Source of the DNA: Spinellus fusiger
Lineage: Eukaryota; Mucoromycota; Mucoromycetes; Mucorales; Phycomycetaceae
Direction of reading: 5' to 3'
NCBI GenBank assembly: GCA_025094145.1
Contig: JALLLS010000051.1
Location: forward strand, 124,001 to 188,000
DNA length: 64,000 nt
Shown here: one piece after another, positions 4,577 to 63,039 of the stretch
How positions within the stretch are numbered: position 1 is the first letter of the stretch
Layout of the letters: each line of letters begins with the position of its first letter
Notes under the pieces: generated by a model
What the model saw: only the letters and a program-made list of their open reading frames with translations
Databases searched by the model: none
Told to the model about the DNA's origin: nothing
Position numbers and translations under genes: made by a program

Positions 4577-5491
4577 TTACAACAAACATTCATCAGATAT
4601 ATACATCAGATTGGATTTGGTTCCTACTTTGAAGCACACAAGCCAAGGTTGTCTGAAGAAAACATGAAGAAAAGACTTCGTTGGGTGAAGGAACGGGTCA
4701 ATTGGACTCCTGAGGACTAGAGACGCGTTGTATGGTCTGATGAGTCACGGTTTGAAGTAGAGGGTTACCAGGGAGGAGCCAGAGTGATTCGAAAGATCGG
4801 AGAGAGGTATAAGGCTGCTCATATCATACCTACAACCAAATGGGGGAAAGGCAGAATAATGATCTGGAGCTGTTTCTGGGCAGGTGGATTTGGGCCTTTG
4901 GTCTTTGTTGATGGCACTGTGAATCAGGGCGTATAGGTCAACATTTTGGCAGAAAAATTTCTGCCATGGTTCATTGAATTGAATGAGAAGGAGAATAAGG
5001 ACTTTATATTCCAAGAAGATGGGGCTAGCTGCCATACAGGTGGCTATACAACATGGTGGAAAAACACACATGCAATCAGGCACTTTGATTACTGGCCTGC
5101 CCAAAGTCCTGATCTCAACTCCATTGAACATCTCTGGAGCTGTCTTGATAATCTTATCGATAACAAGAGAGCCAGTATTAATAATATCGATGAGCTCAAG
5201 ATAGCTTTAGAAGAAGCTTGGGGAAATATCCACGTTGATCTTGCCGAATGTTTAGTTGACTCAATGAAAGACCACTGCCAGGCAGTTATTGATGCCAAAG
5301 GTGGCCCAACAAAATATTAAATAAAAACTTTTTTATATATATTAATATAAAGAATATGTTAAACTAACTTTGTGTTGAATTTGAAGTCATTAGTATGTGT
5401 TTTGAGGTTGTAACATTTATATCCGTAAAGCATGCTTTTTTTCAGGATTTCAAAAAATGAAAATCGTATACTTTCTAATGTTGTGTGACTG
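4577..5491 (+). mobile_element. Tc1/mariner transposon copy 1, 5'-truncated
   Basis: The sequence aligns almost base for base with the fuller copy at 58622-59987, from roughly 4577 to the right terminus. The right end carries the terminal motif CTAATGTTGTGTGACTG followed by TA (5492-5493), the usual mariner target dinucleotide. The left inverted repeat and the helix-turn-helix part of the transposase are missing, so this is a truncated copy. It lies next to the Ty3/gypsy 5' end. Confidence 0.85.
4630..5320 (+). pseudogene. Tc1/mariner transposase, catalytic part, two nonsense codons
   Basis: The translation has the DDE signatures of the family: SDESRF (first Asp), FQEDGASCHT (second Asp) and SPDLNSIEHLW (Glu), with 35 residues between the last Asp and Glu by my count. 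It ends in VIDAKGGPTKY. TAG codons at 4718-4720 (after PED, where copy 2 has Trp) and 4934-4936 interrupt it; the second is shared with copy 2. An ATG at 4946 opens a 124-codon C-terminal frame that cannot act alone because it lacks the first Asp and the DNA-binding domain. Confidence 0.85.
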
Positions 5492-20761: not shown

Positions 20762-22314
20762 TGTTCAAGTAAGTGACTTTAAAAGTAAATCATCTAAAAT
20801 CTGGGGTTACCTTTTTAGTATATACACATGCACTTATAATTCTTAATTCTTAATACTTTTTCAGTATAACACTCTATTATAATACCCACCCCATCTAACA
20901 AGACTGGTGTACTTGTCAAAGCCCATCTAAAAATAAATTAGAATTGAATAATGTGAGTTCTTTAGCCACTATACAAGTTCAATAAGAGATATCATGTCAA
21001 ATATTGATATTTATTGTAGATTAAACATAGAAAGCACTATCATAGCCTAAATATTAAAGCAATATTGTGCGACTAGCTCGGGTGAAATTGGAATCAACTG
21101 TGTCTGTAAGAGAGATCTCGGTAATAGAAATTTCAGAGCAAGAGTAGGATCAGGCTTGATCTTTATTAGACCAAGACGGAGCTCGCTAAGACTATAACAA
21201 CGCATGTTTTCATGACTATAGTGGATAGTCAATCGTATTAAGAAAAGGACTGCAAATCACTCAATCATATAACAAGACCGACTTTTGAGTATCACAAGAA
21301 AGGTTCAAGGGTTCACGAGTAGTCACATTGGGTTCATAGACAGTAGTATGATCCAAAGAGTAAATGAATGTTAATTAGATTTAGTATGGGTCATCTAAAT
21401 TAGCTGAACCATGCCAAGAATTACAATAGAGCTGATATCATGCCATGAATCAGGCTCAACAGTAAAACAATAATAGGTGTGTGTACATAGAAAAAGATGG
21501 TATCGACTCCAAAGATGATGCTGATGTCTTTTTCAATGCATTATCCTGAGCTTTATATACTATTCCACTTTAACTCTAAGGTTGATTGTCAATTATAAAT
21601 AGGTTTCTCCAGTAACTCATATAAAATATATATATAAAGTGGTAAAAGATATCAGATTGTATGGTTACTTCATCCAGCTGACCATCTCAAAGCATGTATT
21701 CACTTCCAATTGATTACCTTTAAGTTTATTTGAAAAGAAGTTATTTACAAAAATAAAATGATCTAAAGAGATGAATATCAGCTAATAGTTTCTCTGTTGC
21801 TCGAATATGGAAGAGTACTAAAGTATTTTGCAATGCTTCTTTGGTCAACATAGTGCGGAGATGTCAAGCTGCCAGATAGGTCAAAGGTAGGCCCGTCAAG
21901 TACCAAACAGTTTTAATAAGACAACTTTCCTCTCTATTGAGAATTTAAGGCATATTTATAATATATATTTATACCAAATTATGCTGTGTAAACTGAAAGA
22001 AATAATAACCTGAAACAAAAATTCACTATTTTTGATGAATCACTTTATTGGGATATTATATTATTCCGGTATTTGGGGGCAATTAAGTATCATAGGCAAT
22101 TATTCAAGTACTAGGGTATTTTCGTATTAGATCAGATAAAAATATAATTAAATCCTGAGTCTTTAAGCCTTTAAAAACCATACCGAGTACCTCATTTTAA
22201 ACCTATTTAACGGAAAATAAAAATTACATAGGATAAAAGTTGATTAATTACAAGATGTGGACATGGTTAAATAATCACCAAAGGCCTTCTTCCAATGACG
22301 TCTGACTATATGTA
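20762..22314. other. Intergenic, AT-rich, nothing recognised
   Basis: No gene, repeat unit or family motif could be supported; the longest frame (21047-21232, minus) is short and has no domain. Confidence 0.5.
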
Positions 22315-23537
22315 CACACCAGGAGACTTTTCCGGCCTTTAAGCGGTGATATCTCCTTCCTTTTACGTCACAATAAAAATTACCTTTTATGTGTCTGTGT
22401 TCAAAATCAAAAGGTTTGAAGTATTCAAATTATTGTTTCCTTTTGTGGATACCTCAATATCAAATTGTATTATTAATGGAATATATTGTTTATAAATAAA
22501 ATTGTTTATTGTAATAGTATAGCTAATGATATATTATGACTATAGCTACTGCCCAAGTGCATTCCCTCATAGCAATAGAATCTATATCCCAACATTATAA
22601 TGATTTGTCCTTGGGAGATAGATAACTATGATCACGATTATACCCCAGACACCTTAGACAGTATAGAAGACTACTTGGGACTAACTTGAAAGGAGTCTTT
22701 ACTTGCCTAATAACAATACAATGAGTGTCTTGTGGAATACAATGAGCCCAAGCCCAGATGAAGACACTGCTTACCTTTCTATCACTAGAATAGTCCTTGG
22801 TAGTGTCTATCACCTCCTTCTATTGTTTCTCTTTGTTAATAATGGCACAATACTTTGCTCAGTTATGCTCATCTTGACGAGTACTTGGGTGTTAAGTTGT
22901 ATGTGCAGTATGGGAGATAATAAAAAGAGGGGGATATAGTAACAAATAACAATTTTATCTATATTCTGGTGAAGTATACACTAGCCTTCACTCATAAAAT
23001 TCACAAGTCAAACAATTCACACTCTATTTATCTTGAGCGTAAAGTCCAGTATTAGAAACAATACCTTGTTATCATTAAGTACTATTGTTGAGAACAGTTA
23101 CAACAACATAGTTGCTAGAGCGATTATGGATATGGATTCAATGAATGGCTATAATTCTCTTAATATAAGTGAGTTTGGTTCTATTTTCTGGACAATGACC
23201 ACTAGAGTTAACTCTATAAGTTCTGTAATACATCTTTCTTAAACATTGTTACGCTGCAAATACTGTGGGCTTAAGGATAACACATTATGTTAAGAGAGGA
23301 ATATCAGTGGCTGAGTTGTAATTCTGGGGTGATTTTTGTTCTATTTCTTCTCTTTACAGCCAATTCTATACTTTTTAATTGCAAAGTCAATCGTCATTGC
23401 TAGAATAGGCAAGTAGAGTTTGGAATTGACCATTTGGACAGCGAAAAAGCCTTTTAAAACACATTGGCCAATCATAAGAATATTGCGGTTTTATTCTCAG
23501 GATATTTCTTTATATATCCCAAAAATCTCCTGGTGTG
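22315..23537 (+). mobile_element. 1.22-kb non-autonomous transposon (copy B)
   Basis: It starts CACACCAGGAGA and ends TCTCCTGGTGTG, with TA on both sides (22313-22314, 23538-23539). Its interior is nearly identical to copies at 33041-34264 and (inverted) 55241-56464. Near 23033-23210 it retains a relic of the family's transposase C-terminus: LNISEFGSIF matches LNVSKLGSLF at the end of the long copy's transposase, and SIRNNTLLSLST matches SIGNNVVLPLST. It is therefore an internal-deletion derivative moved by the transposase of a longer relative. No functional protein is likely. Confidence 0.88.
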
Positions 23538-32290: not shown

Positions 32291-33040
32291 CGTTCTTTTG
32301 GTGGACTATTTTCTCCCGATAGCTTATGATTGTAAATAGATATAGGACTTATGGCTTCCCTACAAAAAAATAACACTCAGGGAGTTTTATCTATCTATCT
32401 AACATATTATTATCTAATATCCACAGGGTGTTTTGTTAGTCCAATGCACAGTCAATATACAGTATCATCCAAATAAAAGGCTATAAACAACAACAACATT
32501 GTTAAAAATACAGCACATTAGATAAAGTATGTTGACATGGAAGAGAATATTTCATAGCCTAGAAATACTACCCATCAAAGGATAAAATAGATTACCCAGT
32601 AAGCATTATTACTAATCTTATGACTTGAATGTTTTTAATGTTGAGTAATAAATATGTGTAATCAAAATAAATATATAATATAGATATAAGGTATTTAGCC
32701 ATAATCATCAGTAAGAACTAAGTGCAAAATGACTTTTGATACAAGAATAACTTAAAATACCTCAAGAAATTCAACCAGTTAACGTGTGGTTAAACTCTGT
32801 ATTTTATTCATTGACTTGTATAATTATTGTATATTGCTGTTCTACTGCTAGAAACTATGATCTAAGATATATGTTCTGATAATATAATGAGTGTAATGTC
32901 TCTTGCAAGTTCCTGATGTATGTGGTGACCTTTTTCTTTTTGGTTGTTCTGCAACACAAATTGATGAATATTCATCTTTGGAAGGTAGTCTTATTACACA
33001 TACAAGTAAGTCGGAGACACAAATATCTAATAGATAGGTA

Positions 33041-34264
33041 CACACCCAAAGATTTTCTGGCTTTTAAGTAGTAACACAATCTCCCCTTAAAGTCCATCCC
33101 GAATTTTGCCCTTATATGTGACTGTGTTTAAAATCAAAAGGTTTGCAAGTATTCAAATTATTGTTTCCTTTTGTGGATACCTCAATATCAAATTGTATTA
33201 TTAATGGAATATATTGTTTATAAATAAAATTGTTTATTGTAATAGTATAGCTAATGATATATTATGACTATAGCTACTGCCCAAGTGCATTCCCTCATAG
33301 CAATAGAATCTATATCCCAACATTATAATGATTTGTCCTTGGGAGATAGATAACTATGATCATGATTATACCCCAGACACCTTAGACAGTATAGAAGACT
33401 ACTTGGGACTAACTTGAAAGGAGTCTTTACTTGCCTAATAACAATACAATGAGTGTCTTGTGGAATACAATGAGCCCAAGCCCAGATGAAGACACTGCTT
33501 ACCTTTCTATCACTAGAATAGTCCTTGGTAGTGTCTATCACCTCCTTCTATTGTTTCTCTTTGTTAATAATGGCACAATACTTTGCTCAGTTATGCTCAT
33601 CTTGACGAGTACTTGGGTGTTAAGTTGTATGTGCAGTATGGGAGATAATAAAAAGAGGGGGATATAGTAACAAATAACAATTTTATCTATATTCTGGTGA
33701 AGTATACACTAGCCTTCACTCATAAAATTCACAAGTCAAACAATTCACACTCTATTTATCTTGAGCGTAAAGTCCAGTATTAGAAACAATACCTTGTTAT
33801 CATTAAGTACTATTGTTGAGAACAGTTACAACAACATAGTTGCTAGAGCGATTATGGATATGGATTCAATGAATGGCTATAATTCTCTTAATATAAGTGA
33901 GTTTGGTTCTATTTTCTGGACAATGACCACTAGAGTTAACTCTATAAGTTCTGTAATACATCTTTCTTAAACATTGTTACGCTGCAAATACTGTGGGCTT
34001 AAGGATAACACATTATGTTAAGAGAGGAATATCAGTGGCTGAGTTGTAATTCTGGGGTGATTTTTGTTCTATTTCTTCTCTTTACAGCCAATTCTATACT
34101 TTTTAATTGCAAAGTCAATCGTCATTGCTAGAATAGGCAAGTAGAGTTTGGAATTGACCATTTGGACAGCGAAAAAGCCTTTTAAAACACATTGGCCAAT
34201 CATAAGAATATTGCGGTTTTATTCTCAGGATATTTCTTTATATATCCCAAAATACCCTGATGTG
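33041..34264 (+). mobile_element. 1.22-kb non-autonomous transposon (copy C)
   Basis: It begins CACACCCAAAGA and ends GATGTG, flanked by TA (33039-33040, 34265-34266). From about 33130 to 34245 it is nearly identical to copy B, including the transposase-end relic near 33761-33940. The outer ~80 bp on the left differ from copy B. It lies in the same orientation as B, about 10.7 kb away. Confidence 0.88.
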
Positions 34265-44800: not shown

Positions 44801-45036
44801 CTGAGATACACACCCAAAGATTTTTGGGATATATAAGGAAATCTATGGAGAATAAGATCGCAATATATTTATGATTGGCTATAAAAGGAAGAAATGAAGC
44901 CTATATTTAAACTCAGTCATAGATATTCTTCTCTTAACATAATGTACTATCTATAGGTTCAAAGTAAGAGTGCATAACAATGTTGAAAGTGTGTTTATTA
45001 TAGGACACACACTGAATTGACTCTAGTGGTCATTGT

Positions 45037-47914
45037 CTAAAAGAGAGAGCCAAGCTTACTTACATTGAGCACAGTGCATTCATTCATTGACTGAATGTCA
45101 ACTGCCTCTACAACTACTACACCATCAAAAGCTACTACAGTTGTAGTGCTCAAGGGCAAGACAACATTGTTTCCAATGCTATCTTTTTGACCCAAGGAAA
45201 AATAGTGTGAGAGTTGGGGCTTTCTACAGCCGAGACCAGATGTTGTGGGTGAGTTTTGGCCAAAAGCAAGTTGTAAATTGTATGGCACAATAGCTATTAC
45301 ACTTTTCTTTCTGTCAATGGTAACGATCTTACCAAAGATGAGGGAAGCACCAGAAGAGAGCGAGAACAATCCAGCTATACCAACGACAATGCTTTTGGGA
45401 CTGCTGTTGTTATCTGCAAGCTCACGGGAGAGAACAAGAGGATGTATGTGCTGAAACAGCTTTACCTTGGCACCAGCAGTGAGGAGACCGCCATGACCAG
45501 ACACCTGCCAGTATCCACCTTGGAAGATATGCGTGGAAATGCATTTTTTCCCAAAGGAAATTGCAACATCACGGGAGGGCGATTGGCGGTTGGTGTGCAG
45601 TCTATGATCTCTGATGAACTTGTTATACTGCTCTCCTCTCTCAGTCTCATAGCGGATGGGAGATCCAAAACGCAAGATGTCTTGATGTAGATGACTGAGC
45701 AGATGCATTTTTAAAGTACTGCTAATGACTGTCTTCTTCACAGACTTCTTTAAGGCTGGCAGGGAATCATACTGGATGATTGCAGCAACCAACTCTTGCG
45801 TGCAATATCTCACCTTGTTCATGTAGATGTCCAGAGAGACATTGATTCTTTGTATATAAAGAATAGAGACGAGAGAACCAAGCTTCACAAAACAATCAAA
45901 GATTATTGCCTTTGAGTTGGTGATGGCAACGAGTCTTCTCTGGATCAAATCATACAAGATGATGGGCATCTGCTGCACAATGATCTTATAATCTCTTCCG
46001 AGATATGAGCCACACAGGCGGAATGGGGTGCGGTGCTTTCTCGAGAAAGCCTTCGAGCTGTAGTGAAAGAAGCTTTCTTCCAAGTGCTTCACTTCTTTCT
46101 CGGTGAAGAACGGCACCATGCTAATCACAAGATTCTTTGCAACACCAAGGAGGATGGTGTGCAAGATTTCTACTGGGCAATCCTTGAAGGGATCCCACGA
46201 CTGGAGAGACAGGAGGGCTTCACCACCAGTTAGCTTATAGCCAGTGCTGGGGCTACTTCTGAGGCTGGCATTGTTGGGGTTGTTGTTGCAGTGTTGGCAC
46301 ATCTCCACCAACTCTTCTATTCTTCTGGCAGGGGCACCATCCACTACTGCACTTCCGCTTTCATTCCTCCAGTAGCACTTTCTGCATGGTAGATTGGCAC
46401 TTGCACCAAGACTACATGCAATCGCCGCATGCATGGGATTGTCTGCCATGATGAAGTGAAGAACACCAACAACAAGGACAGATTCTCCAAACTCCACATC
46501 GAACATCTCAACGCCTCTCTCCAACATCTCCAAGTCCTTTACCAGCTCTGGAAGCATCTCCATTGCCGACGACTTTTTGCTGGTACAAAGAAAGAACATA
46601 TTCTCGATCTTGTTCTGCTCTTTAAGAGGCATTGCTGCAAGTGACATCACCCAACTCTCAAACTTATTCCACTTCTTGGTGGTATTTCCACTCGTGTCAT
46701 CCGAGAACAAGTTCAGAGGCACAATTTTCACTGGCATGAACTGTCTTTTGGGGTTGGTGGTGACTCTTTTGAGAGGGTGGTAGGTGGTGGAGTTGGTGTG
46801 GGAGTAGGTGGGAAATTGAATATCACCAACAGTGTCAAGAATGACAATGTTACTCTCAAAAGAGAAACCAGGTGCTTCTTCATAAGCTTCAGCCATCAAT
46901 CTACCACTTGATGTGAAGAAAGAGGCGAGCTTGTATGTTGTAGTTGTTGTTCCTTCACTGGAAGAGGCGCACACAATATCTCCAACCCAGAGATCAACAG
47001 AAGTGCTATTGATGGTGACAGTGACCATTGGATGCTAAAACAGCGGGTGAGTCTTCCACTTTCCACCTTGTTGGGGCAAAACACTTTGGTTGGGAGTTCT
47101 GTCTGGCAAGGCAGAGAGCATTGTTGTTTTGTGGCGGTTGGCGGTGAGGATCTTGAGATGCTCTGAAAGCATGTTCATAGAGAGCTTATTAGTGGTGGTG
47201 GTGGAACTTGGGGACTTGGTTCTTGGTTCTCTTGTCCAAGTTAAAGATCGTATCCAAGACAGGTGTCTGTTCTTGAGAATGATTAATCCAGGCATCTGCT
47301 CTTGAGGACTTGCAATCCAGGCATCTGCTCTTGAGGATTTGCGATCCAAGAATCTCTCATGTCCTGACACAAAGCCATGACTTTGTCTGCAAGTGCTTTT
47401 GAGAAACGACTCTCATTCTTAAAAAAGAACCGGTGTAAGATCATTTCTGATCTTGTTGCAAATGGGAAGATATCTTCCACAAAGGCAACTTCCTCAAAAA
47501 TGTTGCTGCCGTTGTTGTTGCTGAGTTCTTTTCCTCTGTCAGCCCAAAGAGGTTTCTCTCCGAGCACTTCATCAGCCTCAGTGATGACTTCCTGGGCATG
47601 GTTAGTTTTATTATTCTCTTTTACACGGAAGACTGTTGTCATTCCATAAACAGGTCTACGCATAATACTAATGAAGCATCATTAGCTTATTTCTTATTAT
47701 TTCACGTCTATTTCTATGATAAATACTTAGAAGACCCAGCCTTGGGGCTATTCAAGCCAGAGAATGAGCAACATTACTTTTAGAGTTGAGATTATCCTTA
47801 CATGTTGTGAGTAGCTACATGTGCTTTCATAATTTTCTTTTTTTGGAATGTCTTCTGGCAGATGGTGCAATTGAACGTTCTTTCTTTTTTAAAGTTGATG
47901 GTTGTGAAGGACAT
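45037..47914 (-). pseudogene. Plavaka/CMC-like transposase with N-terminal C2H2 finger, frame-broken
   Basis: Exon 1 (47914-47802) encodes a C2H2 finger (FNCTICQKTFQKKKIMKAHV...H). A 146-bp GT-AG intron joins it to exon 2 from 47655. That frame ends at about 47283 inside a 29-bp tandem repeat, resumes in another frame to a TAG at 47035-47037, then runs open for 663 codons to 45037. The large part has signatures of Plavaka-type (CACTA-related) transposases: LFSDDTSGNTTKKWNKF, MADNPMHAAI, CRKC, CPVEILHTILLG, RFGSPIRYETERGEQYN and HTNRQSPSRDVA. The enzyme would cut and move the element and its short relatives. Deleting one 29-bp unit would bring the two upstream frames together; the TAG remains unless it is an intron acceptor. 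Confidence 0.75.
47262..47348. repeat. Three 29-bp tandem repeats inside the transposase gene
   Basis: Units of 29 bp start at 47262, 47291 and 47320; the second and third (GGCATCTGCTCTTGAGGA...) differ by two bases and the first is more diverged. Since 29 is not a multiple of 3, each added or lost unit shifts the frame. Confidence 0.85.
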
Positions 47915-49255
47915 GTTGAGGAAGATTGTATTTAAGAAAAGAAAAGTTAAGCTGCTTGACCTGAGAATTTTATGAAAGTGGAGGGCAAAGTGCGATTTAC
48001 TTACATCATAGACTGTCACGCTGTGTTTTAAATAAGCAAAATGGATGACGTGAATGTACACTACTTCCAAAAATTAGTCGCGTTTCATAAATATTTATAA
48101 TACAATATATACGCAGATGTGACAAGTGAATGCGACATTACTTTTCGGAAATGGTATATTGCAATTCTTTTTGTTGGGAGGAGCCCAAGTAAGAAATAGA
48201 TATGAGATTGTTCAAAAACCCAAATAAACAAGAGGTGTGTTAAGTAGGTAAAAGGTATATTTCTCAAAGAATTTATTCTATGAATCTGAAGACTACCTAT
48301 ATACATCTTTTAAGGTATGTCTGACATAAGACTAATTTTCAATAGCATTCTCTTCAAAAAATGCACGGACAATAATCTTCCCTTCTTCAGACTCCCAGGG
48401 ACAGAATCTTTCCTTATTTGTAGCAAGATAATGACTCTTACAAGAAATTCACACTAACAAAAGAGTAAACTGGTGTGTATATATTTTTTTTCTAAAAAGT
48501 AATGTTGTATCTGCGTATATATTGTATTATAAATTATCATAAAATGCAACATTATTTTTTGGAAATCATGTACAATTACTAATTCCCTCATTTGAGATTA
48601 TATATTCTTCTATTCTTCTGTCTCTCATTCCTCTGCATTTATTTATTTTTAACTTTAGTGTTTAGAGTGTTTCTATGTTTATACTTAAGATCTTCAAAAG
48701 ATCTCATAGAGTGGCTGATATGTCCAATGCGCGAATAGCAAATCATGCCCAATAATAATAATAAATACTTTGAATTGTGTTGTTATTAGGTGAATATTGC
48801 CAAGTCAGTCTTAAGTGGTCTTTTACAAGGTCAATAATGTTTAGTGTATACTCCTGAGCATAATTATCTATCCCTCAAAGATAAACCATTAGGGTTTTAG
48901 GTTATATATTATATTTCTATGAGGGAATGCACTTGGGCAGTAGCTACAGTACATAATATAGTATTAGCTATACTATTGCAATAAACGATTTTATTCATAA
49001 ACAGTATATTCTATTGATAATACAATTTGATAGTGAGGTGTTCTACAAAAAGAAATAATAAATGGTATACCCATAAACCTTTTGATTTTTAGACATTATT
49101 CTATAGAAAGCATCTATTTACATTATATAAAAGGAAGGAAGTATCACCGCTTAAAGGCCAGACATATTTTTGGGTGTGTAGTCATATATGAAGCGCTAAA
49201 TTATTCTTCCGTTCATTGGCACTGTCATTGAATCTTTTGCTCTTTTGTCTTTTTC

Positions 49256-50655
49256 ATGTCTCATACAACCCATCCTCACTACAAGACGCCCATACCCCAC
49301 AGTGCTTATGAAGGACGTACCAATCACAGTCCTTATGAGAATTCAGAAAATCGACACTCTCACCATCCTCATCATCCTCACACTTATTATGAGAACTATT
49401 CAGATGCCTCACCAGCTGCCAGTTCAGACCTTCATCATTCACATCATGGTGCTTCTCAACCCTCTAGACAGTCTATGGACCAGACACCAGGCAATGAAAT
49501 ACCACGATCTATATCTGCTTGTGGTGCAATAGGCTACGATGAGCGTGAAATGAGGCAAGTGATGCGTATTCATGGCCCCGATCTAACTCTTTCTTTTCTT
49601 CTTACAGGACTTATGAACTGATTGTATCCCAACAACCTCTTCACGCAAGAATGTGTGGATTTGGAGAGAAAGACAGACGTCCTATTGATCCTCCTCCGAT
49701 TGTTCAACTGATTGTAAAACAGAAAGGCCAAGAAAGTGCTATGTTAGACCTTCAGTAAGTGTCTTTTTTATTAACATGCTTATATTGATCGTAAGGTCTC
49801 TTCAAATCCCTTTCTTTGTGCTCCATGTTACCCTTTGGTCAGATGATCGTCAAGAAGAACGTAACATTATATCAAATCCACCAAAATATACACGTGTTCT
49901 CATGGGCTCATTAGTGAGCTCACCCAGTCTATTGAAGAACCCTGAGGGAGAACCTGGTCTTTACTTTGCATTCCCAGATCTTAGTATTCGTACAGAAGGG
50001 AGATATACGCTCCGGTTCAGTCTAATGAAGCTAGTGAGGTACATTGGGCATGGCTATGTATTCATTCTAGAGTGTGTTGACTAATCTATCTATCCATCTA
50101 CAAGTGCTGATTTCCAACAAAACGCCACCTCCTCCATTATTGCCCAGATATTTTCAGATCCATTTACAGTCTATTCGGCCAAAAAGGTAATGGTGGGTTC
50201 TTTTCCATGGGCTAATGTTACTCTTTTGCATTCTTTTGTTCTTTTGTTTGTTTTTATTATGTCTGTGGATGTAGTTTCCTGGAATGACAGGTACAATAAA
50301 TATACCAATGTTCAGCCATTCATGTGGGTTTTTATTATCATTTTAGAATCTACGGAGCTTTCAAAGGTGTTTGCTAAACAAGGGCTTAAGATACCTATTC
50401 GTAATGATGGTAAGAAAAGAAAAAGAAAAAGAAAAAGAAAAAAAACAAGAAAAGGCATCCATCTCATACATGCTGATTCTAGTACGATCAAAGAAATCGG
50501 ACTAGCACAGGCACTTTTTGCTCTTTACCCCGTTTTAAATATTACTTTTTGCTATTTTTTCTTCTTCTTTTTCTTTTTGAATAAATCCTTTGTTCTATTT
50601 TTCAGATTTCTTTAAAAGAAAAGGGAATATAACAAATAATAGAATGGCACTGTAG
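49256..50655 (+). CDS. Velvet-domain regulator (VelB/VosA type)
   Basis: Seven exons (49256-49554, 49608-49754, 49796-50038, 50105-50186, 50275-50290, 50347-50409, 50606-50655) give 299 aa. After a His/Ser-rich start (~95 residues) the velvet domain runs from [20 protein letters not shown] and [15 protein letters not shown] through [30 protein letters not shown] and [18 protein letters not shown] to KIPIRND. Intron 1 uses a GC donor (GCAAGT), and exon 5 is a 16-nt microexon coding FPGMT. The last exon is uncertain: without the final intron the frame runs on through a Lys/Arg repeat to about 50615. Velvet proteins bind DNA through an NF-kB-like fold and control fungal development and secondary metabolism. 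The first ATG lies 78 bp from a transposon end, so its promoter is partly transposon DNA. Confidence 0.88.
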
Positions 50656-50892
50656 AAAGTAGGTTTTTTGTTTTTCCTTTGGGCCTCAACTATATTAAAA
50701 TAAACTCCCTGAACACCTATCTTTTAGTTTTTTTTTTTAAAAAAAAGAAGACAGTATCTTAGAGATCTTAAATGAAGGAATAAAATATATCTAAAGAACC
50801 TTTAATGTGTATTATTACTGCCTTCTTAATTCATCATTCCAAGTTAAAATATACTAACTTTTGAAATATCCAACACATTCAAAGATTCTCTA

Positions 50893-51377
50893 CACACCCA
50901 AAAATATGTCTGGCCTTTAAGCGATGATACTTCCTTCCTTTTATATAATGTAAATAGATGCTTTCTATAGAATAATGTCTAAAAATCAAAAGGTTTATGG
51001 GTATACCATTTATTATTTCTTTTTGTAGAACACCTCACTATCAAATTGTATTATCAATAGAATATACTGTTTATGAATAAAATCGTTTATTGCAATAGTA
51101 TAGCTAATACTATATTATGTACTGTAGCTACTGCCCAAGTGCATTCCCTCATAGAAATATAATATATAACCTAAAACCCTAATGGTTTATCTTTGAGGGA
51201 TAGATAATTATGCTCAGGAGTATACACTAAACATTATTGACCTTGTAAAAGACCACTTAAGACTGACTTGGCAATATTCACCTAATAACAACACAATAAG
51301 TGTCTTGTGAATTACAATGAGCTCAATACCAGATAATAACACTTATTACCTTTCTATCTCAAAAATCATTAGGTGTG
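50893..51377 (-). mobile_element. 0.49-kb short copy (E) of the CACACC-end family
   Basis: It starts CACACCCAAAAATATGTCTG and ends TTAGGTGTG, flanked by TA (50891-50892, 51378-51379). Its left ~400 bp are a near-identical inverted match to the right end of copy D (48780-49178). It is a minimal derivative lacking all transposase sequence. Together with D's right end it brackets the velvet gene in opposite orientation. Confidence 0.85.
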
Positions 51378-55240: not shown

Positions 55241-56464
55241 CACACCAGGGTATTTTGGGATATATAAAGAAATATCCTGAGAATAAAACCGCAATATTCT
55301 TATGATTGGCCAATGTGTTTTAAAAGGCTTTTTCGCTGTCCAAATGGTCAATTCCAAACTTTACTTGCCTATTCTAGCAATGACGATTGACTTTGCAATT
55401 AAAAAGTATAGAATTGGCTGTAAAGAGAAGAAATAGAACAAAAATCACCCCAGAATTACAACTCAGTCACTGATATTCTTCTCTTAACATAATGTGTTAT
55501 CCTTAAGCCCACAGTATTTGCAGCGTAACAATGTTTAAGAAAATATTTATTATAGGACACACATAATTAACTCTAGTGGTCATAGTCCAGAAAATAGAAC
55601 CAAACTCACTTATATTAAGAGCATTATAGCCATTCATTGAATCCATATCCATAATCGCTCTAGCAACTATGTTGTTGTAACTGTTCTCAACAATAGTACT
55701 TAATGATAACAAGGTATTGTTTCTAATACTGGACTTTACGCTCAAGGTAAATAGAGTGTGAATTGTTTGACTTGTGAATTTTATGAGTGAAGGCTAGTGT
55801 ATACTCCACCAGAATATAGATAAAATTGTTATTTGTTACTATATCCCCCCCTTTTTATTATTTCCCATACTGCACATACAACTTAACACCCAAGTACTCG
55901 TCAAGATGAGCATAACTGAGCAAAGTATTGTGCCATTATTAACAAAGAGAAACAATAGAAGGAGGTGATAGACACTACCAAGGACTATTCTAGTGATAGA
56001 AAGGTAAACAGTGTCTTCATCTGGGCTTGGGCTCATTGTAATCCACAAGACACTCATTGTATTGTTATTAGGCAAGTAAAGACTCCTTTCAAGTTAGTCC
56101 CAAGTAGTCTTCTATACTGTCTAAGGTGTCTGGGGTATAATCATGATCATAGTTATCTATCTCCCAAGGACAAATCATTATAATGTTGGGATATAGATTC
56201 TATTGCTATGAGGGAATGCACTTAGGCAGTAGCTATAGTCATAATATATCATTAGCTATACTATTACAATAAACAATTTTATTTATAAACAATATATTCC
56301 ATTGATAATACAATTTTATATTGAGGTATCCACAAAAAGAAATAATAATTTGGATACTTGCAAACCTTTTGATTTTGAACACAGACACATATAAGGTAAT
56401 TTTTATTGTGACGTAAAAGGAAGGAGATATCACCGCTTAAAGGCCAGACAAATCTTTGGGTGTG
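55241..56464 (-). mobile_element. 1.22-kb non-autonomous transposon (copy F)
   Basis: It starts CACACCAGGGTATTTTGGGA and ends ATCTTTGGGTGTG, flanked by TA (55239-55240, 56465-56466). It is an inverted near-identical copy of the elements at 22315-23537 and 33041-34264, same length as C (1224 bp). It keeps the transposase-end relic on the minus strand (55600-55745). It lies about 160 bp upstream of the glycosyltransferase start and directly abuts a LINE. Confidence 0.9.
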
Positions 56465-56469
56465 TAGTA

Positions 56470-58540
56470 AGGAGAATATCTATGTAGAACTAGAAATTAG
56501 TTATATGCACTTAGCCAACAGCGTCTCTTTCTTTGAGGAGGAGAGAAACAGCTATAAAAAAGAAGAAATAATAGTAGAGGGAGAGAAAGGAATGTCATCA
56601 AAAATCAATTGCCAATGGGCACGCCACAATTCACCAAGCACACTGCCAATAATTTGGGAGCTTCTAAAATCCGGTGGGTCGGGAGGGAGCTTAAGAGAGA
56701 GAACACATGGAATAGAATATCGGATTGCCTGGGCGAAATGAAAGAAAAAAAAGTATATAAAGAGCACACTACACAGGCCATTTGGATGGACACTATACTA
56801 GAAAAATGCTCAATAGTGGCAGTGAATTGAGAGCAGACTCGACACTGTGGAGACGAGAGAAATGTTGGACATAAGGATTCAATATTCCAAGACCACCACT
56901 GGCCCGAGAAAGACATAGAGTGGCAAATTCAATAGGAAGATACATCCGCTTCATCAGAAACTTGCTAATGATAGACTGGAGTGATTGGAAAAAGGTGTGA
57001 GGAAGAGGTGTGATGCGGATGACATACCAAAGGGTAGATAGAATGAGAGAATGAATAGTGGTGGCTCTGCCACGAACTGAAAGAAAACGTTGGCTATGGA
57101 TGTTGGTGGCTGCTCTTATCTTTCCAAGTAGCTGTGCATAGGTAGATTGCCTTTGACTTCAAAAAAAAAAGTAGCTACTCAGGGTAGACCAAAGCAGTAG
57201 GGCATGTATTGTCAAACCAAGCTGTAATACCCACCTCAATGAGCAATGGCTGTCATTCAGGAAGAAGACATCCAGAGAGAGAAAAGGCATGAATCTTGTG
57301 AAGGTTCATCCTGGCATTGGATTCCTGTCCATATATTTTCAATTGGTGTAGTATCCGTCCCAAGTCTCCTGGGTCCTGAAGAAAGACAACTATATTATCA
57401 GCATAGGCTAGAGCACAAAGAGAATATGTAGGAGGAGGGGCAACTGCTGGTGATAGTACAGGAGGAAGAAACCCTTTGAGTATGGTTTCTTGCAGTACAC
57501 TCAATAGAAATGGCTCCAGAACAGGATTAGAGAGGACAGGAGAAAGAGGATCCCCCTGCCGAAGACCACGACTTTGCATAACTTGTTGTGAGAGATGTCC
57601 ATCGACATTGATGCGAATACTAGTAGAGAAGAAAAGAGCAGTGATACTATCTACAAGAGATCGCTTAAAGGAGAAAGCTAACGGTGTCTTGGTGAGCCAT
57701 AGCGGGTAAACTCTATCATAAGCCTTTTCTTGATCAAGAAGAAGACCCCATTGCTGTTGAGTTTGTGTTCTTTGCACGTTCCATGGGCAGACGAACCAAG
57801 ATTCTATTATCGACGATAAATCTTCCAGGAAGAAAGCCAGTCTGACAAGGATTGATACAAGTACGAGCTACTTTAACCATCCTCCCATTGACCAAACGGG
57901 TGAATACTTTCGCATCACAGTTGATCAAAGAGATGGTTCGCCAATTCTTCAAAGTAGAGAGATCACTCTTTTTTTTTGGTAAAAGACACATGCCAGTTTT
58001 CTGCCAAGAAGGAGAGAAAAGAGAAGACAAGAGAGCATCTTTGTAAACCTGACATACAAGACTGGCATAGTCTTGTTGCTTAAATACTAAATACTAAATC
58101 TAAGATACCATAAGGCAATCCATCTGAGCCAGGGCTACTGTACCGAAGAGCATGCCAAACACCCTATTGTCTGTCCTCAATAGTGAGTGGCACCAGAAGA
58201 TCCTCTTGTTGTTGGGCAATTATCTTTCTATTTTCTGGTATCTGTCTAAGCAGAGTACTGACTGAGTCTTCCTCAGTTTTCTCTGGTGTCAACAGAGTGG
58301 TATAGAAAGCCTGTGCGGCTTCTGTCATAGTAGGAGAAGTATCACACAGTGCATTGGTGGTAGGGTGACGAAGGGGCGGTACAGTTCGTTGGATTTGTCG
58401 TATCTGGATTGTGGCTTTAAGGTACCCAGGGGATTTCTCACCCTGTTCCCGCCAGAAAGGTGAAAACCATGAGAGCGTGGCCTGTGCGTAGTTATGGTGA
58501 CAATGTTTAATTGTAGAAAGATGATTAAAAGTCACACCAA
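56470..58540 (-). mobile_element. Degenerate LINE (non-LTR retrotransposon), RT region
   Basis: Minus-strand pieces of ORF2 are found in order from 58535 to about 56605: pre-RT region, RT motifs, C-terminal region. Endonuclease and ORF1 are missing on the 5' side. The left (3') boundary touches the transposon copy ending at 56464, so it may have been inserted into or cut by it. It is related to, but distinct from, the LINE at 42.4-44.8 kb, with similar LINCDAKVFTR and QTGFLP blocks. Confidence 0.85.
56605..58535 (-). pseudogene. LINE ORF2 remnant with mutated RT active site
   Basis: 58535-58164 is the linker upstream of RT (SPTMTEAAQAFYTTLLTPEK). 58030-57734 has NWRTISLINCDAKVFTRLVN and CQTGFLPGRFIVDNRI. 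57777-57253 has LLLDQEKAYDRVYP, QSRGLRQGDPLSPVLSN and the catalytic box, which reads YADN instead of YADD (about 57395-57410). Beyond this are further C-terminal pieces with stops and shifts (SGGLGILNPYVQH near 56900). The element is dead by frame breaks and by loss of the second catalytic Asp. Confidence 0.85.
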
Positions 58541-58621: not shown

Positions 58622-59987
58622 CAATCACACCCAATTAGAAAGTGTACGACCCCATAATTTATACAATTTTAAACATGATTCATCTTCTTTTTCCTACCAC
58701 AGAATCATATTCCATTAATCAATCTCAAATGTCAAACGCAGAATCTTTAACTAAATAATCTAGAGTTTATAATATGTTTTAAGAAATAGAGTACTAAGGT
58801 GTTTAATAGCTTTTTTTTTAAAATATATATATATATATATATACTCTATAGGTAGCATCTCAAAGGTCATTGACATTAGCAAGACTACTGTCCAGAATTT
58901 TATTAGTAGAATCAAGACCACTGGTGCACCTCTACCGAATCCTAGCTCTGGTGCACCAAAAAAACTTAACGAGAGAGACCTCAGACGAATTGAGGTCATT
59001 CTAAGAGGCAACCCATTTGCCTCCTATAACTATATAAATTTGGAACTTAAATCATATGAGATAATCATCTGTAGAGCAACATTCATCGAATGCATACACT
59101 AGATTGGGTTTATTTCCTACTTTTCAGAACACAAGCCAAGGTTATATGAAGAAAAACACGAAGAAAAGAGTTTGTTGGGTAAAGGAACAAGTCAACTGGA
59201 CCCTTGAGGACTGGAGACGTGTTGTATGGTCTAATGAGTCACGGTTTGAAGTAGAGGGTTACCAGGGAGGAGCTAGAGTGATTCGAAAGATCGGAGAGAG
59301 GTATAGGTCTGCTCATATCATACCTACAACCAAATGGGGGAAAGGCAGAATAATGATCTGGAGCTGTTTCTGGGCAGGTGGATTTGGGCCTTTGGTCTTT
59401 GTTGATGGCACTGTGAATCAGGACGTATAGGTCAACATTTTGGCAGAAAAATTTCTGCCATGGTTCATTGAATTGAATGAGAAGGAGAATAAGGACTTTA
59501 TATTCCAAGAAGATGGGGCTAGCTGCCATACAGGTGGCTATACAACATGGTGGAAAAACACACATGCAATCAGGCACTTTGATTACTGGCCTGCCCAAAG
59601 TCCTGATCTCAACTCCATTGAACATCTCTGGAGCTGTCTTGATAATCTTATCGATAACAAGAGAGCCAGTATTAATAATATCGATGAGCTCAAGATAGCT
59701 TTAGAAGAAGCTTGGGGAAATATCCACGTTGATCTTGCCGAATGTTTAGTTGACTCAATGAAAGACCACTGCCAGGCAGTTATTGATGCCAAAGGTGGCC
59801 CAACAAAATATTAAATAAAAACTTTTTTATATATATTAATATAAAGAATATGTTAAACTAACTTTGTGTTGAATTTGAAGTCATTAGTATGTGTTTTGAG
59901 GTCGTAACATTTATATCCGTAAAGCATGCTTTTTTTCAGGATTTCAAAAAAATAAAAAATCGTACCCTTTCTAATGTTGTGTGACTG
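58622..59987 (+). mobile_element. Tc1/mariner transposon copy 2, both ends present
   Basis: The left end CAATCACACCCAATTAGAAA and the right end (complement CAGTCACACAACATTAGAAA) form ~30-bp imperfect inverted repeats, flanked by TA (58620-58621, 59988-59989). The 1366-bp element contains a full-length but broken transposase gene. Its right ~900 bp are almost identical to copy 1 at 4577-5491. An AT dinucleotide run lies at 58823-58843. Confidence 0.9.
58845..59814 (+). pseudogene. Tc1/mariner transposase, degenerate
   Basis: The N-terminal part keeps a helix-turn-helix region (ISKVIDISKTTVQNFISRIK, then a second basic helix GAPKKLNERDLRRIEVIL). A stop near 59100 and a one-base shift near 59150 (extra A relative to copy 1) follow. 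The catalytic region runs from 59104-59430 to a TAG at 59428-59430, then 59440-59814 carries FQEDGASCHT and SPDLNSIEHLW. First-Asp context is SNESRF, where copy 1 has SDESRF, so the first catalytic Asp is mutated here. The enzyme is inactive. Confidence 0.87.
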
Positions 59988-60620
59988 TAATACCATAAAG
60001 ATAAGGTATTAGAAAGAAGTAAATGGTATAGATAGGCTTCTTTGGCAGACATTCTATGGCCAATATTTTCAGGCTGTCATTGTGTTGGAGTGAGAGATAA
60101 TAGCCAAAGAATATACATATTGCTTGTATGGGGCAAAGATGCTGGATCGTCATTGATGCCAAGAGTAAATACATAATATACTAGCTGCTTTTGTAATGAA
60201 GTTGTTTCTATACCTATAAAACACTCTTCTTATTCACTTAAAGGGTTATGACAGTATTTCTTGTAATCATAGTTACAGTACTATGGAATTAGAGAGTACA
60301 AGTTGATAACATCACCATGAGTTTGATATACTGTAGTCGATCCTCCCTCTTCTCTCAGACTATTACAGGGTGTTCTCTTTCTTTCTTTTACAGCTTCACT
60401 ACTATTAATAGAATAATATATTGGTTGAATTTCCATTGTTTATTGTTAGTACCTATCTACTTATTAAACTGGGTCTTGTAGTAGTGGTGTTTATTGTTGG
60501 CTTTACCAAGTTTCATTTTCTAACTACAGTGGTAAAAGTATTACACTTGTACGTTTCCTACAAACGTCATAATTAAGAAGATTCCATTCAAGGGCAAAAT
60601 AGAGTCAGAATAGGTTCATT
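59988..60620. other. Intergenic between two transposons
   Basis: No gene was recognised; the only frame of note (59971-60174, minus) is short and begins in the Tc1 terminal repeat. Confidence 0.45.
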
Positions 60621-60831
60621 CACACCAGGAGATCTTTAGGATATAAAAGGAAATAGTCAAAATACAATTATTTAAAAATGACATCGATTTGAAAAGGAGC
60701 AAAAATAAATTATGTATTCATGTTAGTTTTTAAACAAATAAAGATTATGTAGATTTACCTGTAGATATCTGAATCCCGAAGGAAACCACTTTCGATGTGG
60801 CGATATATGATATGAATACAAATAAGAATGT

Positions 60832-61302
60832 CTATTCTTCTCTACGTAATGGAACTGGTCGGTGGCAACCCTTTAAACACTCTTCTGCAATTGTATAGAT
60901 ATTCTTTGATGCATTCACATGTCTGCTCCAAACAATTCCGCAACTTTGGCAAGCGCGGATATTGTTGAAATTCACTAATACCTCGGTGAGGTTATTTGTG
61001 TTATAAGTATGGCAGATCTTGAGAACAAAAATAAAACAGAGTAACTGTTAGAAGAGCTTTTTATATTGGGTGAGAGGTCAATCCTGCTTACCCTTGATGT
61101 AAAGAACTCATCGACATCAACCATTAGATCTCCACCCTTTTTGTCTCTTTTCCAATGATTGATATAAAACTCTCGTCAAACCAACACAATGACCTTTAAA
61201 CTTGGTAGCATCTTTTACCTTTATTCCTTTGCCATAAGTAACGACTGGCAGCTTGGCAGGATCATACTCCAATCCTTTTAGGTGCCAATATCCCTTTTCA
61301 AT
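60832..61302 (-). pseudogene. Fanzor (eukaryotic TnpB-like RNA-guided nuclease) C-terminal remnant
   Basis: The minus strand from about 61302 reads YWHLKGLEYDP, PVVTYGKGIKVKDATKFKGH, VGLTRVLYQSLEKRQK, then, after a one-base shift near 61133-61142, GDLMVDVDEFFTSRIC. A 74-bp GT-AG intron (61018-61091) separates the last exon 61017-60832: RACQSCGIVWSRHVNASKNI, ending GCHRPVPLRREE. This is the order of the RuvC-II/zinc-ribbon/RuvC-III part of TnpB and Fanzor proteins. Three defects are visible: the frameshift, a Cys-to-Tyr change in the first zinc pair (CHTY, codon 61003-61005), and His (60919-60921) where the RuvC-III Asp of RDxNAS is expected. Upstream exons may lie at 61490-61560 (FNLFAFAWHINQQ) but are unproven. 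Family members cut DNA guided by an omega-RNA; this copy is dead. Confidence 0.78.
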
Positions 61303-61932
61303 AATAAAACAGTAAAAATAATTAGTTTGAGATGTATTAATGTACTCTATGTGTGTGTCGTATTACCCTTGCATTGGTATCTTCTTGCCTTTGCCTTTGT
61401 AATGGATTCACTGGGTTTATTATAGTAAAAGAATATACAATAGAAACTGACTAATATGTCAGACATAATAAACATACACAAACACTCACCAGACCAAAAC
61501 TGTTGGTTTATATGCCAGGCAAAGGCAAACAAGTTAAACAGGGTAGAAGTTCTGAAGAACAACAGACAGTGTAATTAGCAGGTATTAATATCCGAACAGA
61601 AGAGAACAATACGAAATCTCACAAGTCATTTGCTTAATCAGAACCACCAAAGCAATGCAGACTACAACAACATTTTAAAAAGAAAAGAATTGCTTAAAGA
61701 ACAGTTGCCTAGTTACCCGTTGTGCTCAAATCGTGTGTTGTGTCCCTGTTCATGTACCCTCTTTGATTTCCCTAGACCAGTCTTTGTATCCAATACTCTA
61801 TTTTGTAGTCCCTGCTAGAGACCAAATATCAATACATTTATCTCTCTTGATTGAATTGTTACTAATGCACTCTTCTGTTATTAGGTAAATAAAGACTCTT
61901 TCTCAAGTCAGTCTCAGGTGGTCTTCTATACT

Positions 61933-61977
61933 GTCTAGGGTGTCTAAGGTGTCTAGGGTGTCTAGGGTGTCTAGGGT
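61933..61977. repeat. 9-bp tandem repeat, five units
   Basis: The unit GTCTAGGGT is repeated five times (the second has one change). Copies B, C and F have only one or two units at the matching place, so the array expanded in copy G. Confidence 0.8.
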
Positions 61978-62289
61978 GTATTCTCAAGCATAGTTATCTA
62001 TCTCCCAAGGATAAAACACAAGGCCATTAGGGTGTGGATTCTATTTCAATAAGAGGAATACATCTAGAACAGCAGTAGCTATATTATTATAATAAACAAT
62101 TTTATTCATAAACACTATATTTTATTGATAATACAATTTGATATTGATGTATACTACAAAAAGAAACAATTATTTGGATACTTGCAAACCGTTGATTTTA
62201 AACACAGTTCCATAGAAGGGCAACATTCGGGATCCTCGTAAAAGGAAGGAGATATCACCGCCTAAAAGCCAGAAAAATCTTTGGGTGTG

Positions 62290-63039
62290 TAGTAAAAAAA
62301 AAGAAAAAAAAAGAGAGAGGAGCTATTACACAACTGTACATCAGACCCTATTTATGACATGATAATGTCACAAGTGCAAAGCCAATGAACTTTATCTGCT
62401 GTAGTACTAAAGAGTGATCTGCCTACTGTTTTCCCTCACAGATCAATCTGTACACTGTGCTTAGTCCTATGAATTGAAAGGAGACCTGTACACTAGTAAG
62501 AGAGTACTGGTGAATGCAGTGGCCATTGACAGAATAGTGCTCAGTGGCAATACCCTCTGTGCACCCGCCTTCTTCTCAATAGTACTTTATAGTCGACACC
62601 CTTGTCGATAGAACTTTATCTATTTTTATCTATCATCAATGCTAAAAGGCATATCTTCTCTCCAACACCCATAGAGAGGGTTTTATCAGCATAAATAGTC
62701 GGCCTTTGGTTAGCTATTGTTAGAATACAGTGTCTTGTTCAACCTGGAGGCTGTCAGTCCATCGGCCATTCAAGTCCACTGGTAAACTCATATGCTTTTT
62801 TTCTTTTCTTTTTTCTTTTCTTTTTCTCATAGAAGGATGACATTCAATCCAAGTCAGCCAAATATGTTTTGGCTCCAAATGACATCAATGTATCATAGAG
62901 AGAGTCCTCAAGTGAATAAAAAGAGACAAAGAATGATGGAAAAAAGAGTCCATTTTTATTTTCCATCTTAATACCACTTCATTCTTACTCGTGTCTGCTA
63001 TAAGATTGCCTCTCCATCTCCATCTATTCTCTGCTCAAT
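62290..63039. other. Upstream region of the CYSTM gene
   Basis: No coding sequence was recognised. It includes pyrimidine-rich runs (TTCTTTTCTTTTTTC near 62800-62825) and should hold the promoter and 5' UTR of the gene at 63040. Confidence 0.45.

Follow-up and report, generated by a model that had tools for sequence, protein, structure and literature searches.

Element G, a transposon copy of 1669 bp in a 64,000-nt window of the Spinellus fusiger genome (C145:124001-188000 of the 38.08 Mb assembly G000; positions given without a contig are those of the window), contains the relic of a Fanzor gene. Very probably G, dead and non-autonomous, belongs to a TA-targeting, ESTA-like DNA transposon family of the CMCT clade, assigned by fold, motifs and termini, which gained the Fanzor by a composite event, was mobilised in trans and spread as a passenger. 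In the proposed course of events, a derivative lacking the transposase would have acquired the Fanzor gene by formation of a composite, taking its right end from an internally deleted transposase-type element similar to element F (Table 1) and its left end from a Fanzor-bearing neighbour. Transposase encoded by other members would recognise these ends and mobilise the copies in trans, and the Fanzor part, truncated and damaged, would have kept multiplying as passenger DNA, to about 400 copies.

All peptides quoted in the first-pass annotation of this DNA are present and are encoded by the minus strand in different frames: GYWHLKG.. at 61293-61135, ..VDEFFTSR ending at 61092 and ICHTYNTNNLTEVLVNFNNIRACQSCGIVWSRHVNASKNI.. 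at 61017-60835. The unspliced zinc-ribbon frame matches PF07282, the TnpB zinc ribbon, at E=9.1e-4 and 19.8 bits, under the curated cut-off of 26.3. Removal of the intron between TSR and ICH, with the frame change near 61136 passed over, yields a protein (..TSR joined to ICHT..) which exceeds the cut-off at E=1.1e-8 and 35.5 bits. This match, together with the annotated relative P0050 described below, supports the identity as Fanzor/TnpB proposed in that annotation. When compared to PDB sequences, the spliced C-terminus of G detects the mimivirus TnpB-like L79 (E=0.004), and megablast against a phage collection gave no match. Over the genome, 150 of 457 candidates were scored, and 147 of these 150 exceed the PF07282 cut-off. 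A TnpB likeness due to chance or composition, which the low score of the unspliced frame could suggest, is refuted by the spliced score, by these genome-wide matches and by P0050, in which RuvC-I and PF07282 occur together; its probability is practically nil.

The Fanzor/TnpB motif (Bao and Jurka 2013, PMC3627910) is composed of a RuvC-I Asp, followed after 125-275 residues by [TS][TS]XX, a C4 finger and, 5-50 residues later, RD. In relatives such as the sister copy L055, TSRICHTC...CQSC is obtained after the inferred splicing. G keeps TSRIC, but its finger reads CHTY...CQSC, one finger Cys being lost, and its RuvC-III residue is H in place of the relatives' D. The residues after the finger were evaluated in 47 copies, 18 of which were chosen by hidden Markov model (HMM) and hence biased to intact ones, and which include some near-identical pairs: RD is found in 43/47, KD in 3/47 and RH in G. 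The G copy is dead: it has RH in place of RD, a Tyr where relatives have a zinc Cys, a frame change and no RuvC-I.

A protein search with the spliced C-terminus of L055 returned a single hit, the partial hypothetical protein P0050 of Spinellus fusiger, which matches a locus on contig C13 at 91-98%. P0050 contains RuvC-I as CGVDLGRK, with D66 located 136 residues before T203 of FRTLR, a distance within that of the motif, though the motif itself reads TL; CQSC and RD follow, and PF07282 is matched above cut-off. The G copy aligns with residues 137-245 of P0050, and the RuvC-I part is missing from G and from the great majority of copies. A search with the first 137 residues of P0050, in which all candidates were scored (55/55), revealed 18 loci covering D66, among them those on C13 (around 409000-412530), C127, C139, C140 and C119, seven of the 18 with no stop within the matched piece; the length of the matched open frame at these loci depends on the query (316-376 versus 206-242 aa) and is not a checked frame length.

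Searches with more general models were less informative. P0050 matches the NCBIfam guided_TnpB model at E=2.8e-4 and 20.3 bits (100 needed) and L79, among PDB sequences, at E=0.68; its first 137 residues gave no PDB match at E<=10, and its predicted structure is unusable (mean predicted local distance difference test, pLDDT, 38.8). NF040570 (guided TnpB) produced 106 matches over the genome at E<=10, none of them above cut-off and all inside model positions 348-386; the absence of any RuvC-I that they suggested is overturned by P0050. A RuvC-I frame was not recognised in the consensus of 15 long copies.

Some of the RuvC-I loci are associated with the ends of the family. At the C13 locus a Fanzor-type left end with TA comes next. 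The region C1:1102820-1105177 contains, in order, the right end at 1102820, RuvC-I at 1103904 (with 3 stops), the two exons at 1104281 and 1104521 and the left end at 1105148, and upstream of the RuvC-I loci at 908802 and 1159380 of the same contig an exact right end lies at a distance of 0.7 and 1.1 kb, respectively. On the contigs covered by the exact right-end list, such an end is thus found near 3/7 RuvC-I loci, and no exact match is found near the other 4/7, C13 included. Judged from these sequences, the Fanzor-type family once carried more of a Fanzor. A further Fanzor copy with a RuvC-I region, containing 2 stops, is located at C145:200767-201765, 12.8 kb outside the window.

A DNA search with G, in which 40 of 1772 candidates were scored (G included), gave 71 matched pieces. 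The 39 main matches besides G show 84-91% identity across much or all of its left 1.23 kb. A check on whether the ends and the Fanzor core could belong to unrelated nested insertions revealed that 38 of the 39 copies match the Fanzor segment and the left end as one piece, at the same identity, while in the remaining one the left end is a separate piece; core and end have thus not come together by chance. Both ends were mapped by similarity to G in 32 copies: ten are 1.36-1.39 kb long, their left 1.23 kb being joined to no more than the final ~113 bp of the right end; 16 measure 2.15-3.09 kb and six, G included, have other lengths. Over the genome, the left-end pattern of either type occurs 717 times, the transposase-type left end at 149 places and the RuvC-III exon, with more mismatches allowed, at 439, the reversed patterns giving 0; the Fanzor-type left end is found at 397 places (<=1 mismatch) and the right end at 798 (<=2 mismatches), again with 0 in the controls. 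The left-end region was present in 20/20 loci fetched among the 150 scored TnpB zinc-ribbon (TNB) matches. A protein search with the read-through relic frame of copy L058 gave 161 candidates, none at E<=1e-3.

The ends of G were located where the first-pass annotation had put them, CACACCAGGAGAT starting at 60621 and ATCTTTGGGTGTG ending at 62289; before its left end, G reads TT and not TA. Its claim that these ends are common to transposase-bearing copies holds: the right ~420 bp of G are 71-73% identical to the window stretches 56063-56470, 33039-33443 and 22313-22715, and its left 35 bp are 88.6% identical to one other window copy. The family termini are CACACC..GGTGTG. Among the 32 mapped copies, TA precedes the left end in 29, follows the right end in 26 and is found on both sides in 24, against a background TA frequency of 0.087 in the copy loci.

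For the family transposase, a model built on the L059 relative, 87% identical to the transposase of element D, predicts a RAG1/Transib-like fold. An uninterrupted copy of the transposase is located at C57:253928-255931. The CMCT hallmark, C(2)C and H(3-4)H between the second D and the last E, is present (D401, C420/C423, H647/H651, E671), and termini and target site duplication (TSD) agree with the 5'-CA..TG-3' ends and 2-5 bp TSD of CMCT elements, whose lineages mostly have CA..TG termini (Kojima 2025, PMC12730594). TA targets combined with the RAG1 fold fit ESTA, which is defined by a TA TSD together with an EnSpm-like transposase. The Plavaka/CMC-like assignment given in the first-pass annotation is therefore retained for CMC-like, by motifs and fold, and dropped for Plavaka, whose termini, TGT..ACA or CATCA..TGATG (PMC12730594), differ from those of the family. 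The Plavaka profile PF18759 had no match in the genome, nor in the control genomes, which were silent as well; one relative matches it at E=0.005. Tc1/mariner, considered as mobiliser on account of the TA target, was rejected, since the RAG1-fold transposase is carried by sister elements that share these ends.

Of the TNB candidates, 150 of 457 were scored, and of the transposase candidates, 67 of 693; none of 66 distinct transposase loci has a scored same-strand TNB match within 5 kb downstream. The longer Fanzor copies retain a 3' remnant of the transposase (in L046, residues 771-881, E=3e-14). In addition, L055, L046, L048 and L017 retain the old left subterminal sequence to ~11 bp from its end, with an identical break, which in L039 is located earlier; the Fanzor exons and the new left end lie past these remains. 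On C1, a RuvC-I stretch (515191) is directly adjoined by a left end of the transposase type (515158-515187), likely a vestige of the nesting from which the composite arose. The exchange of transposase for Fanzor envisaged in the first-pass annotation is hence borne out as to the existence of transposase-less Fanzor copies, and not as a clean swap, since long copies keep parts of the older element. The spread of transposase-less copies also argues for the reliance on trans mobilisation suggested there.

Several observations weigh against the composite origin and the spread as passenger DNA. The composite origin is based on one junction common to four copies and on the coordinates C1:515158-515191; the Fanzor-type and transposase-type left ends agree over only ~35 bp; and the common right end of the 32 copies is partly due to construction, mapping being by similarity to G. 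Some of the sampled copies are near-identical pairs and thus not independent. On C111 a TNB match follows a same-strand transposase at 7.2 kb, and on C25 another precedes a transposase by 1.9 kb; with scoring confined to the candidate numbers given above, a rare two-gene element may be missed. P0050 has TL where the motif wants two T/S residues, and its gene model is without the first zinc pair; no exact right-end match lies near the C13 RuvC-I locus. Mobilisation in trans is inferred from sequence. An independent Fanzor family, having its own unseen transposase and owing end likeness and remnant to the later nesting of an F-type element, would account for the short agreement of the left ends, for the abutment on C1 and for the arrangement of F-type and Fanzor parts as adjacent blocks in long copies. 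This account is rather unlikely, as the short copies L013 and L034 (1.38 kb), which contain no transposase remnant, share right end and TA, and as family ends flank a RuvC-I Fanzor at C1:1102820-1105177.

The 28 copies selected for DNA similarity deviate per site by 0.066-0.072 in their introns, by 0.073-0.075 in their exons and by 0.074 in the 3' region, whereas the value for the terminal 40 bp is 0.044. In the zinc-ribbon exon, the three codon positions vary at 0.055, 0.085 and 0.078; this exon contains stops in 15/28 copies and has a synonymous share of 0.287, where 0.241 is expected. C-C-C-C-R-D is intact in 21 of the 47 copies described above, and 25 have Tyr at the second finger Cys, which indicates that a damaged source was amplified; this Tyr probably marks a subfamily amplified after loss of the finger. 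The sampled Fanzor copies are not maintained and behave as cargo.

In Fanzor elements, the guide RNA originates at whichever end lies 3' of the gene (PMC10711439). With the Fanzor gene of G on the minus strand, this is the left end (60621); a guide RNA would be expected there, on that strand, not in the right ~430 bp, where the first-pass annotation had expected an omega RNA. Folds were no better than shuffles in the left region (z=+1.10) or at the right end (z=-0.11), covariation was seen in 0/23 predicted pairs across 14 copies, and Rfam gave no match at E<=0.1 over 60500-62400; the lack of a signal does not disprove such an RNA. A selected RNA-guided system, in which a few loci still make the Fanzor and the left ends of truncated copies give guide RNA to keep or return the element at its sites, would find room in the 18 RuvC-I loci, seven of them stop-free in the matched piece, and in the retention of the left, guide-side end by truncated copies. 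It is nevertheless highly improbable, given that the 3' region is conserved no more than exons and introns, only the terminal 40 bp being lower, that the ends show no RNA structural signal and that none of the copies is shown intact. Very little credence is likewise given to a partnership in trans, in which a few RuvC-I loci would provide Fanzor and others the RAG1-fold transposase, both borrowed by ~400 truncated satellites through their ends, including the guide-RNA end.

Table 1. Features of element G and of related elements in the window
Feature	Position	Strand	Remarks
Element G, non-autonomous Fanzor-relic transposon copy	60621..62289	+	1669 bp; CACACCAGGAGAT...ATCTTTGGGTGTG
Left end of G	60621..60655	+	88.6% to transposase-type left end over 35 bp
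Fanzor stop to left end, expected guide (omega/re) RNA region by polarity	60621..60834	-	no structural signal
Fanzor exon, zinc ribbon and RuvC-III	60835..61017	-	ICHTY...CQSCGIVWSRHVNASKNI; Cys to Tyr, Asp to His in G
Inferred intron, TSR to ICH	61018..61091	-	removal lifts PF07282 from 19.8 to 35.5 bits
Fanzor exon	61092..61293	-	GYWHLKGLEYDP...VDEFFTSR; frame change near 61136
Right terminal ~430 bp of G, common to transposase-type family	61860..62289	+	
Element D, transposase-type member	44809..49178	+	CACACCCAAAGAT...TTTTGGGTGTG; TA both sides
Transposase open frame of D	45040..47034	-	665 aa; N-terminal part runs on in another frame (broken)
Right-end region of a further family member, inverted	50890..51366	-	first 408 bp 99.8% to right end of D
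Element F, internally deleted transposase-type copy	55241..56464	+	transposase 3' remnant, tblastn residues 816-881, E=8e-17
Element B, F-type copy	22315..23537	-	97% to F
Element C, F-type copy	33041..34264	-	96% to F

Two right ends of the family, at 48774-49181 and 50890-51297, inverted and 99.8% identical, flank a velvet-factor gene (PF11754, E=1.1e-22) at 49183-50889. A second DNA transposon is present in the window in copies at 59078-59832 and 4585-5338, 95% identical over 300 bp; the former, beside G, contains a DDE_3 domain (PF13358). Frames resembling it by appearance adjoin the element in L059.

No Fanzor in a CMC-type or RAG1-fold CMCT carrier was found in the open-licence PMC full text searched, and for this reason the carrier is regarded as unusual; it may be new. 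A 2023 Fanzor survey in Science Advances reportedly may list further transposon associations. With the present family, the RAG1-like CMCT clade would join the known Fanzor carriers. Transposase elements, RuvC-I Fanzor genes by the same ends, truncated Fanzor elements and many dead copies occur side by side in one genome, and these several stages make possible a direct test of whether Fanzor benefits its carrier or is dragged along as cargo of transposase-less derivatives.

Transposons encoding only Fanzor are already known (PMC3627910, PMC10711439). In Mucor, Rhizopus and Phycomyces, DNA transposons carry Fanzor1 as cargo, and some Fanzor families have terminal inverted repeats (TIRs) and TSDs of a known superfamily and no transposase, including MuDR-like and Mariner cases (PMC3627910). 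The fungal Fanzor1 carriers of that paper are Mariner, Sola, IS4-like, Helitron and MuDr, in contrast to the RAG1-fold CMCT carrier described here, and the words CMC, EnSpm and CACTA are absent from its available text; in addition, the Spinellus Fanzor, present in hundreds of copies, is mostly reduced to a 3' relic. The SfAV Fanzor1 element (PMC10711439) is similarly non-autonomous, with TIRs and a short TSD, and encodes only Fanzor1; it differs in that its guide RNA was sequenced, and its transposon family is given as unknown. RAG1, ProtoRAG and Transib align with the family transposase at ~11% identity, and the target of the family is the 2-bp TA. A further parallel is provided by ESTA (PMC12730594, whose available main text does not contain the words Fanzor and Mucor), with an EnSpm-like transposase akin to RAG1 and TA target duplications; the ESTA families carry TET/JBP dioxygenase genes, whereas the Spinellus family carries Fanzor.
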